Shown one piece after another: positions 15,348-19,487 of a stretch of DNA of 64,000 nt. The notes under the pieces are model-generated. The model ran no database searches. It was given only the letters and a program-made list of their open reading frames with translations, and had not been told where the DNA came from. Position 1 is the first letter of the stretch. Every line of letters starts with the position of its first letter. The stretch is from NCBI RefSeq assembly GCF_003003885.1, contig NZ_PVWN01000018.1, positions 1 through 64,000 on the forward strand. Direction: 5' to 3'. The position numbers and the translations under genes were made by a program. Source of the DNA: Chlorogloea sp. CCALA 695. Its GTDB lineage: Bacteria > Cyanobacteriota > Cyanobacteriia > Cyanobacteriales > Chroococcidiopsidaceae.

Positions 15348-15710
15348 TCACTCTAAAGTTACTTCATTTTCTGAATAATCTGCTGTTAATTTAAAGATTT
15401 TCAGCCATTGAGAACCTAATAAAATCTCTCTAATTTCATCTCCAGCAAATACAGTAACTTCAAATTCCTGGTCGTCTATAACTACCCTACCTAAATAAAC
15501 ATCAAAAAATGATTCCCCTTGGGCTGACTTTAATTTATTTTGACGTAAAAATACCCAATCAAGGCTCTGTACATCTTGTTTATTCATTGCTACAAGTTCT
15601 GTAAAACCAGTATCTAGCATTGCTTCTACAGAAAGACTCAATCCATCTGTATCTATTAAATTGATATCGAAGTATATTTGTCCTTTGTCTCCAAATCGTC
15701 CTTGAATCAT
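15348..15710 (-). CDS. Retropepsin-like aspartyl protease family protein
   Basis: A 120-residue protein with the single-domain aspartic protease signature MLDTGFTELVAM, catalytic Asp-Thr-Gly at about residue 33, and the C-terminal hydrophobic ILLGSQWL that matches the flap-distal psi-loop of the clan AA family. Such proteins act as homodimers. Its start overlaps the stop of the 15707-16024 gene by 4 bases, so both are translated together. Pairs of this type recur in cyanobacteria, but the substrate is unknown. Confidence 0.75.
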   Translation of the reverse strand: MIQGRFGDKGQIYFDINLIDTDGLSLSVEAMLDTGFTELVAMNKQDVQSLDWVFLRQNKLKSAQGESFFDVYLGRVVIDDQEFEVTVFAGDEIREILLGSQWLKIFKLTADYSENEVTLE

Positions 15711-16024
15711 ATTCTGCCACTGACACCAGTTTCATTAATGCCGAAAATATGGTGAATGACATTAGGGTGTTTTTCCCGTGCTTTTCGACTTGCTAGTTCA
15801 TGATCTCGATCGATAAAATAATCTCCGCTATCTGGTTCAATAGCAATATACCAACCGTAGTATTTATCTAATATTTCCGGCTTCAACTGCTCAAAAATCG
15901 GCCAGCAGCGTTGATAAAAAGCTTCCCTTCTTGCTCGATTCTCTGCCTTTTTTTCTTCTGACAATTCAATCCCTGGGAAAACTCTACCGCGTCGGACATT
16001 GGGGTTAGGTGTAGATTGATTCAT
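15707..16024 (-). CDS. Hypothetical partner of the aspartyl protease
   Basis: A 105-residue protein with a charged helical N-terminal half and then YYGWYIAIEPDSGDYFIDRDHELASRKAREKHP, a segment resembling the DUF5678 fold (a small beta-beta-alpha unit found next to retropepsin-like genes). It lies immediately upstream of and overlaps the protease gene. Its function is not known; a role as substrate or regulator of the protease is inference from context. Confidence 0.65.
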   Translation of the reverse strand: MNQSTPNPNVRRGRVFPGIELSEEKKAENRARREAFYQRCWPIFEQLKPEILDKYYGWYIAIEPDSGDYFIDRDHELASRKAREKHPNVIHHIFGINETGVSGRI

Positions 16025-16168: not shown

Positions 16169-16325
16169 TAAGAATGTCTCTATTAGCGTGTGGGAGCGGG
16201 ATTTAGAGTAACAGAGAGTCTTTGTGCAAGAAAGCTATTGGATGAATTGTAAGAATTTTGTTAGATATTCCTACATATTGGGAATACTAAGGTCAACCAA
16301 TGAAGCCTAAAGCAGGGTAAATAAT

Positions 16326-18344
16326 ATGTTGACAATACAGTGGCAAGAAGAAATTACATTATTGCAGAAAAGTTTAAAACTTGAAATAAACAAAATATCT
16401 GCTGGTTCGGAAATTAATATAATCAAGCATATTTGCATAAACAACTTAAAATCAAAGCTGGAACGATTACAAGAAATTGAGACGATTCTTAACATAGACA
16501 AATATAAACTTATATTCATCGGTACGATTGGTCAAGGAAAGACAACAGCTATTTGTCATATTTTTAATTTGATAAGCGACTTTAAAGTTTCCAGAATTAA
16601 CAATAAGAAAACTACAAATTTCATTGCAACTAAAGAATTATTATCAACAGGATCGGGACGAACTACTATATGCGAGGTAATTCTTAAAGCTGCGGAAAAA
16701 ACTTATATAGAAATAGAGCCTTATACTGTCGATGAGATGGAAAGTCTTATTTTTGAATTCTGCGACTCTATTGCAAATGAAAATAGTTCTAATCCAGAGT
16801 CTAAACCAATTATTTCTCAAGAGATTGAAAAAGCTATTAGGAATATAGTAGACCTGAAAATAATTTTCAAATCTGTTACGGAGGATAACAAAACTAAAAG
16901 CGTTCCAATTGATAAAGCTAAAGAATTATTTAAAGAGTTTGGAGAAGATGTACTAAGAAAGACTGCATTATTTAATGCAAACCTTGAATCTAGAACTATT
17001 ATCAAAATTGATTTTGACAATCAAAACAAGGAACACGAATGGATAAAAGATACTTTCGCTGCTATTAATAATGTCCAATTACAAGAATTTGCTATACCAA
17101 GAAAAATAAATCTTTACGTCAGCGATAAGGTTTTATCTAGTTCAAATTTGTATCAGTTTGATTCTGTCGTTGACACCAAAGGACTAGATGAAAACCCAAT
17201 TCGTAAAGACTTACAAAAATACATTGAAAGTCAAGATACGATTTGTCTTTTCGTAACTCCCTTCAATTCCGCTCCTGAAGCTAATATTAGTAAATTAATT
17301 AATTATCATCTTGCATCTAAATCAAAAGACTTTCATCATAGATTTGTAACATTGGTATTACCTCACATAAATGAACCTGAGAATGTAAATACTGCTGACG
17401 GAGATGGGGATTTAGGAATTCTAATTAAAAGCCAAGAAATACAAGGCGCGTTTAACAACTTAAACTTAGACTTTTTTCCAGAAAATATATTGTTTTATGA
17501 TGCTTTAAAATATTACCATAGTAATCAAAATGCACTTAGACTGAATGAAGACTACGCAGAAGAAGATGTACAAGCAGATAAAAATAAATTTATTGAAGCT
17601 GTAGCAGGTGTAGTAGAACGTAGGAAAAATATTTTATTAGCCGAGATTAAAAGTATCCGAGAAAGCTTTGCGAAAATTAAGAATGGCGATGCTTTGACAA
17701 AAACAGAAATTAAAGCAATTGAAAACGCTATTCAAAAATTAAAGAGCTTACAACAATTAGGTCAAAGAATACCTGGTTTTGTTTATGAAGACTTTACTAA
17801 AAACTACATTGAATACTATTGCACTATTCATAAAGCATGGAACACTAAACACGCTATTCATAGAAGATTTGGTTACTATGAGCCAAGGGATATAGACATA
17901 TATTATGACGCAAAGGTTTTTGTTGAAGGAACAGATGAAAATCAAATGCTGAAAAAGTTTACTAGAGAAGTGAAACAGGAGTTAGAAAATATTTTAAATG
18001 AGCTTACTTCTGCAAATGAATCTTTAGAGACACTTATCCCGGAATTAGTTAAAGAATTTTACGCATTATATGATAGTTTTATCTACACAGTTGGGACAGA
18101 AATTCAATGTGAGATTGTAAGAAAACTCTCACCTCAAAGTGAACAATCTGATTTTTGGAATGCTCTAATAAATGAAAAAGGTAAGGTTCATCCACCGGGA
18201 GAAACCTACACAGAGAATATATGTGAAATATTTATGCGAGAACTTAAATTAGAAACAAGCTTGAATAAGTTTTTACAAAGCAAAGCTGAATATCATTGGG
18301 AGAAATTAGTTAGTAAGATATTAGACTTTTTTGGGCAAAACTAA
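16326..18344 (+). CDS. Dynamin-like P-loop GTPase, candidate defence protein
   Basis: A 672-residue protein with an N-terminal helix (1-58), a Walker A/G1 loop GTIGQGKTT at 66-74, and a probable switch segment STGSGRTTICEV at about 110. A G3-type motif DTKG lies at 283-286 in a strand-loop context (VVDTKGLDE), followed by TICLFVTPFNSAPEA. A canonical N/TKxD G4 motif is not evident. The C-terminal half is predicted long helix, as in dynamin stalks. No membrane segment. It is AT-rich and free of HIP1 sites, unlike its neighbours, and is followed by a nuclease gene 95 bases downstream. I infer a two-gene defence unit; the exact family is not recognised. Confidence 0.6.
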   Translation: MLTIQWQEEITLLQKSLKLEINKISAGSEINIIKHICINNLKSKLERLQEIETILNIDKYKLIFIGTIGQGKTTAICHIFNLISDFKVSRINNKKTTNFIATKELLSTGSGRTTICEVILKAAEKTYIEIEPYTVDEMESLIFEFCDSIANENSSNPESKPIISQEIEKAIRNIVDLKIIFKSVTEDNKTKSVPIDKAKELFKEFGEDVLRKTALFNANLESRTIIKIDFDNQNKEHEWIKDTFAAINNVQLQEFAIPRKINLYVSDKVLSSSNLYQFDSVVDTKGLDENPIRKDLQKYIESQDTICLFVTPFNSAPEANISKLINYHLASKSKDFHHRFVTLVLPHINEPENVNTADGDGDLGILIKSQEIQGAFNNLNLDFFPENILFYDALKYYHSNQNALRLNEDYAEEDVQADKNKFIEAVAGVVERRKNILLAEIKSIRESFAKIKNGDALTKTEIKAIENAIQKLKSLQQLGQRIPGFVYEDFTKNYIEYYCTIHKAWNTKHAIHRRFGYYEPRDIDIYYDAKVFVEGTDENQMLKKFTREVKQELENILNELTSANESLETLIPELVKEFYALYDSFIYTVGTEIQCEIVRKLSPQSEQSDFWNALINEKGKVHPPGETYTENICEIFMRELKLETSLNKFLQSKAEYHWEKLVSKILDFFGQN

Positions 18345-18439
18345 ATAGTATTGATTAGGAAATCAATACACAATTTGGGGCGCAATATATTTGTGTCCCT
18401 AAAAAATTTTATCAACTGTTACTCAATTTCAAACTATTT

Positions 18440-19186
18440 ATGATTCATTTAAACGCAGAAATGCAAAGCAAGCTTGATATATATCCTAAAAACAATCAGA
18501 AATACACAAGATGTTTAATTAGGAAAACAGAAATTGCACTTAATGGAAGACCAGAGGAGTTAGTCAGACAGATGTTTATTCACTATCTAATTAAAGAAAG
18601 TGGATTATTAGCTAATAAAATTAATATTAAAATTGAATCAAACAATCATGATATAGAAATATATAGAAGAGAAAGAAATCATAATTTTAAGCCTCATCAA
18701 GCTCCGCTAATAATTGTGGAAGTAAAACGAGAAAATACAAATTTGCCAAATCATTACCCTCAGATCAAAAGATATCTAAAAAATGCTCGTTGCAACCTAG
18801 GGATTTTATATAACTATCATCAAATTATACTATTTACTAAAATAGTAAATGAATTAGACAATTTTGAAGATAAACATCTTAGAAATTTTCAAGATGTAGA
18901 AAACTTGATTTTAACAGAAGGCAATGACATTGATAGCAATTTAGTAGAGTTTGAAAAAGCTGAGAATGGAAATTTTGAAAGTTTTACTTACCTCGTGAAA
19001 AAATATGGAAAGTATACAACTAATACAATAGTATTTAAACTGAAAAATCAGCAGCTAAAAACAAAAGGAGCTTTTTTTAACGTTCAAGGAAATAAAGTAT
19101 ATTACGATCCATGCGGTCAATTTGCTGACAAGCAACAATTTTTTGAGCGTCAACATTTTGAAAAATTAGTTTCTATCACGTACTAA
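18440..19186 (+). CDS. PD-(D/E)XK nuclease, HsdR N-terminal-like
   Basis: A 248-residue protein whose N-terminal half carries a type I restriction HsdR-N-like nuclease core: RPEELVRQMF (Glu39/40), then HDIEIYRR (Asp71), then LIIVEVKREN (Glu94-x-Lys96). The order and spacing match PD-(D/E)XK enzymes. Residues 150-248 form a separate region of unknown function. There is no helicase or methylase, so this is not a standard restriction enzyme. It shares strand, AT-richness and lack of HIP1 with the upstream GTPase gene, which could supply NTP-driven control. Confidence 0.65.
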   Translation: MIHLNAEMQSKLDIYPKNNQKYTRCLIRKTEIALNGRPEELVRQMFIHYLIKESGLLANKINIKIESNNHDIEIYRRERNHNFKPHQAPLIIVEVKRENTNLPNHYPQIKRYLKNARCNLGILYNYHQIILFTKIVNELDNFEDKHLRNFQDVENLILTEGNDIDSNLVEFEKAENGNFESFTYLVKKYGKYTTNTIVFKLKNQQLKTKGAFFNVQGNKVYYDPCGQFADKQQFFERQHFEKLVSITY

Positions 19187-19200
19187 ATAGTTACAGGAGC

Positions 19201-19487
19201 GATATTGTACATCTGCAACGGGTAACAGAATCCGCCGCTACTGCACCAGGTGCGATCGCTAGTTAGCAATTAGCAACTGGGATGAAAAGTTTGTTGGTTG
19301 GGGAGGCAAAGCTCAAAATATCATCGAACGATATCTACAAGATGGGCGATTTTTGTCTCAATGCCCAAAACTTGTATACTTACATCTACCTAATCCACCC
19401 AACCAACACCGGACGGAAACAGCTTTTGTATACCAAAATAGACAACACTACTACACCACTATAAAATCTCGATGCAAAGATAATTAA
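19201..19487 (+). pseudogene. Decayed C-terminal part of a family 2 glycosyltransferase
   Basis: Two frames read as one protein interrupted by a frameshift and stop. From 19201 it reads as far as APGAIAS followed by TAG at 19264-19266. The second frame, from about 19266 to the TAA at 19485-19487, reads NWDEKFVGWGG, ERYLQDGRF, then LPNPPNQHR and NRQHYYTTI. The WDE-FVGWGG and H-N-R-Y pattern resembles the C-terminal galactosyltransferase-like domain of GT2 enzymes. The N-terminal two thirds is missing. It converges on the intact glycosyltransferase gene with a 4-base overlap. Confidence 0.45.

Follow-up and report, generated by a model that had tools for sequence, protein, structure and literature searches.

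The stretch of DNA analysed here (64,000 nucleotides of Chlorogloea sp. CCALA 695, hereafter the window) contains a conserved and mobile pair of genes that is inherited as a genuine two-gene unit. The pair probably belongs to the known kind of defence systems that combine an NTPase with a nuclease. Gene A (16326-18344, forward strand) encodes a predicted dynamin-like GTPase of 672 aa with an N-terminal P-loop NTPase half and a C-terminal, helical, stalk-like half. Gene B (18440-19186, same strand) encodes a 248-aa PD-(D/E)XK nuclease of the HSDR_N_2 family and is separated from A by 95 bp. These coordinates, lengths, the size of the gap and the motifs agree exactly with a first-pass annotation made from the sequence alone. 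With a probability of about 0.6, the pair is a small mobile immune unit, in which A would detect an intruder cue or assemble in response to it and B would be recruited or licensed by A for cutting DNA, while remaining idle and harmless without A. No description of this gene pair was found in the literature searched, the scope of which left out preprints and most subscription journals.

All 27 intact copies of A detected in 218 Nostocaceae genomes were accompanied by an adjacent intact B, and no intact close homologue of A lacked B in this set; these counts were taken from tables and, since the genomes are related, do not represent independent events. Intact B was present in 35 of these genomes, including eight in which the neighbouring A was truncated, frameshifted or interrupted. 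A 490-aa open reading frame, which by its look we take to be an IS66-type transposase, lies inside A of one of these eight, a Nostoc genome (L175, 3159-4631), with B intact downstream. In the Nostoc genome G607, the A family is represented by three copies (C67, C87, and C111), of which one is intact and accompanied by B while the other two are broken. Across 386 genomes sampled from the phylum, strong matches to B (>300 bits) were confined to seven, and these were also the seven that matched A strongly, although A was reduced to its C-terminus in one of them (G278). Overall, the distribution is patchy (42 of the 218 Nostocaceae genomes and nine of the 386 in the phylum sample). Among 18 related loci retrieved from genome contigs, B followed A in all those not cut by a contig end, and gene order and strand were conserved in every intact locus examined. 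A pair located on a Pseudanabaena plasmid displays 43% (A) and 32% (B) identity to that of the window and has no spacer.

The evolutionary distances of the two proteins are correlated (r 0.93 with outgroups and 0.90 without them). The dN/dS ratios of both genes are in the range of 0.15-0.33, except for one very close, uninformative pair, and point to purifying selection on A and B alike. The two-gene unit proposed in the first-pass annotation was thus borne out by strict linkage, matching trees, mobility and patchy occurrence. Neither unlinked homologues, nor a conserved housekeeping locus, nor a PADLOC match, all of which that annotation had named as evidence against its proposal, were found for the close family. 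The linkage applies to this close family; distant relatives of A also occur unpaired.

A selfish, toxin–antitoxin-like addiction module, with a toxic B restrained by A or a harmful A moderated by B, would also be a mobile two-gene unit, and toxin–antitoxin genes were located near the unit at two loci (L028 and L093). However, a toxin gene would not be expected to be tolerated without its antitoxin gene, and in eight genomes B is intact although the A next to it is broken. B is thereby excluded as a toxin that is constitutively lethal unless restrained by A; the pattern fits a B that is idle without its partner. The asymmetry between eight cases of broken A with intact B and none of intact A with broken B would agree with an A that is harmful without B, but it is not significant given the gene lengths ((672/920)^8, about 0.08), and a nuclease in the role of an antidote would be unusual. 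We regard addiction as an unlikely explanation of the unit.

The composition of the unit differs from that of its surroundings. The AT-richness noticed in the first-pass annotation corresponds to a GC content of 29.7% versus 40.9% in the window, and just 0.06% of all 2861-bp windows have a lower value. The HIP1 sequence GCGATCGC, which was said to be absent, indeed does not occur in the unit, versus 1.33 per kb in the window, and no HIP1-free interval of the window is longer than the one of 3107 bp in which A and B lie. The same features were observed in 18 copies carried by different hosts: the GC content was 28.5-31%, and HIP1 was absent from 51 kb of unit DNA versus 257 occurrences in 251 kb of flanking DNA (1.02 per kb). 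HIP1 depletion of the unit is, therefore, beyond chance. Since the copies keep a low GC content and zero HIP1, the unit is compositionally foreign at every site.

Comparison of the flanking regions revealed the unit at about eight unrelated chromosomal sites, in addition to the Pseudanabaena plasmid. In the window, it is located between menC and a glycosyltransferase gene. At the same site in another genome of this genus (G003), the pair is absent but the DNA for the last 31 residues of B is retained (77% identity, 4e-11), while the sister genome G004 possesses other genes instead of the pair. A single site within one genus thus displays presence, replacement and loss of A-B, and the menC-glycosyltransferase interval is a chromosomal turnover spot. 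The alternative cassette in G004 (L130, 2946-6640) includes a TnpB-like protein. Aliterella atlantica has only the left side in common with the site in the window.

Decayed gene pieces had been reported on both sides of the unit. This is true for the right side only, where 19187-19480 looks decayed, since the small genes on the left side are intact. The latter form a neighbouring two-gene module outside the unit (15348-16024, reverse strand), encoding an aspartyl-protease-like protein of 120 aa and a protein of 105 aa. It is intact at the same site in G004, with 92% identity, and is located on the opposite side of A-B in Aliterella atlantica. The left flank of one further locus (L014) probably also contains this separate mobile module.

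The N-terminal half of A displays the G1, G2 and G3 motifs of GTPases (GxxxxGKTT, TT, and DTxG), all of them invariant. The P-loop comprises G66-TIGQ-GKTT74 (16521-16547), with G66, G69, G71, K72, T73 and T74 invariant. The candidate switch I/G2 is TTICEV at residues 113-118 (16662-16679), in which T113, T114, C116, E117 and V118 are invariant in the A1 alignment. The G3 motif (DxxG) is D283-T-K-G286 (17172-17183), followed by D288 and R293xD295; D283, T284, G286, D288, R293 and D295 are invariant in A1 and, with the exception of D288, also in the wider family. Overall, the P-loop, TTxCEV and DxxG are invariant in 17 homologues, and most of their residues are also kept in the wider family, except for K285 of DTKG, which is variable among distant relatives. 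The G4 motif (N/T)KxD was not found in A, and a loosely conserved stretch of the LPxxxEP/EA type occupies its place. Because this motif is missing, specificity of A for GTP is presumed rather than proven.

No convincing assignment of A was obtained with Pfam, NCBIfam, PHROG or PADLOC, the models of the latter giving no match up to an E value of 10, and PDB sequence searches with A and B also yielded nothing convincing. The GTPase family of A is, accordingly, named by none of the searched libraries. The Dynamin_N profile did not match A of the window and matched three relatives below the cut-off (best value 5.5e-4). When the closer A family was compared with cyanobacterial dynamins using hhalign, the match fell exactly on the DxxG region, with a probability of 77% (P 2e-5). 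For the profile of the wider A family, the corresponding probabilities were 30% (dynamin), 15% (Der GTPase), 1.3% (AAA+ protein MoxR) and 0.3% (reversed dynamins). The AlphaFold model of A has a mean pLDDT of 52.9, with values below 50 in the GTPase part, and contains helices at residues 412-669 in this low-confidence structure. A pLDDT of 53 and the lack of a clear NKxD leave the nucleotide and the fold of A uncertain. The dynamin-like character suggested in the first-pass annotation is weakly supported, and A is best read as a GTPase with a remote likeness to dynamins.

Upstream of A, alignment of loci with different flanks revealed a conserved promoter-like element, TTGTTAGAT ... GGGAATACT (16258-16288, forward strand). 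The pattern TTGTTAGAT-N13-18-GGGCATACT is exact in 10 loci, and the element was absent from the list produced by a generic promoter scan. This putative promoter appears to travel with the unit. The spacer between A and B contains a hairpin (18372-18403, forward strand), the 8-bp stem of which is kept in 17 loci, with 96.3% of cells paired and four pairs changed on both sides, a sign that covariation maintains it. A search of Rfam gave no match. We considered this hairpin as a specific RNA element but abandoned the idea: similar hairpins of the GGGACGCAAT...ATTGCGTCCC type are dispersed in G004 (76 matches at E<1; seven in the window's own genome). Given this dispersal, the hairpin probably has a generic role as attenuator or insulator.

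The assignment of B to the PD-(D/E)XK nucleases on the basis of Asp71 and Glu94-x-Lys96 stands. Residues 38-133 match the HSDR_N_2 profile (PF13588; 2.5e-12; 47.3 bits versus a cut-off of 25), and the cut-off of PDDEXK_3 was also passed; these are the sole Pfam matches of B. The catalytic core (18650-18775, forward strand) comprises D71, E94-x-K96 and, in addition to the motifs recognized earlier, Q108-x3-Y112, and is invariant in 18 homologues. The D, E and K residues are retained in the Pseudanabaena homologue. The structure model of B has a pLDDT of 86.6, and its top Foldseek matches are to the nuclease domains of DrdV, HsdR and BpuSI, suggesting a similar fold. The C-terminal domain (residues 165-248; 18932-19183, forward strand) is modelled as two helices and a small beta barrel. 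These last 84 residues display a fold-level resemblance to Hfq/Sm (Foldseek TMt 0.65), but hmmsearch, Pfam and hhalign gave no support for homology, the Hfq sequences used being approximate. PADLOC yielded a weak domain-level match of B to mad2 and nothing else.

The layout of the unit resembles that of McrBC, a two-gene operon in which the gene for the McrB GTPase comes first and that for McrC, a separate PD-(D/E)XK nuclease, second (PMC11090510). One could therefore suppose that A-B is a type IV restriction system of this kind, diverged past recognition. McrB is, however, an AAA+ GTPase with an NxxD/NxD motif, whereas A has DxxG (G3) and scores higher with dynamins than with the AAA+ control. 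McrC combines DUF2357 with PD-(D/E)XK, whereas B lacks DUF2357; moreover, no McrB, McrC or DUF2357 match was found in Pfam or PADLOC, and the unit has no methylcytosine-reading domain. Descent from McrBC is, therefore, very improbable, and A-B is best read as McrBC-like in logic but non-homologous to it. B also resembles the N-terminal nuclease domain of Type I HsdR in family and fold, but it has no helicase motor, carries the extra C-terminal barrel and is only 248 aa long, and no hsdM- or hsdS-type reading frame adjoins the unit in the window.

Among defence dynamins, DynA confers phage resistance in Bacillus (PMC8844932), and the Eleos systems (LeoA-LeoBC) belong to the same group. A shares with them the appearance of a large dynamin-like GTPase with a helical half, but its similarity to dynamins is remote, its partner is a nuclease, and it has no match to the LeoA or LeoBC profiles of PADLOC.

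Within cyanobacteria, A-B usually stands alone among housekeeping genes, with no defence island around it. When 76 neighbours were scanned with PADLOC, the matches were scattered, were not assigned to individual members and formed no consistent defence island; no phage records encoding A were found. Because of these mostly housekeeping neighbours, the association with defence islands depends on distant relatives of A (approximately 23-30% identity), and it is this association that constitutes the main positive evidence for a defence role. Such relatives occur on proteobacterial plasmids (Rhizobium, Agrobacterium, Sphingopyxis, Sphingobium, Roseomonas, Mesorhizobium and Citrobacter), on three IMG/VR contigs and in prophages. 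On one of the IMG/VR contigs (L134), which looks like a P2-like prophage, a decayed relative adjoins a phage integrase gene, possibly in an accessory-gene hotspot. Most full-length wider relatives possess an N-terminal Xre-type HTH. Genes adjoining the wider relatives encode Septu PtuA (3.7e-165) and PtuB (7e-111), DUF262/GmrSD_N (twice), DUF3800 or HsdM, while some relatives have no evident partner. Thus, HTH-GTPase relatives of A are found next to complete PtuAB or DUF262 genes, but no A homologue is a defined part of Septu or GmrSD-type systems, and A of the window is partnered by B. Unpaired relatives of A exist (L025-L027, G557, and G639), so B is not needed by the whole A family; in cyanobacteria, such unpaired relatives occur both with and without HTH.

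The combination of a nuclease with an NTPase is also a theme of DNA repair. A function in repair, recombination or the maintenance of plasmids and transposons, rather than in defence, would agree with the one copy on a plasmid and with the distant relatives on many plasmids. The patchy presence of the unit, its frequent decay, loss and replacement, and the restriction and Septu genes next to relatives of A speak against such a role, which we consider improbable. The preferred reading remains that of an immune unit, in which A would use GTP and physically interact with B, sensing the intruder or gating the nuclease, and B would act as a nuclease on phage or plasmid DNA. A broader possibility, which we put forward tentatively and hold to be less probable, is that A founds a new (HTH-)GTPase family of immune regulators with interchangeable effectors; cyanobacterial members would work with the HsdR-type nuclease, and proteobacterial ones with GmrSD-like, DUF3800, HsdM or Septu proteins.

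If the immune reading is true, the pair would represent a second, unrelated route to a GTPase-gated restriction nuclease, and dynamin-like GTPases would become linked to DNA-cutting effectors. Cyanobacteria would then possess a compact, two-gene defence unit of 2.9 kb that is directly testable, for which the natural strains with broken A and intact B would serve as ready-made controls.
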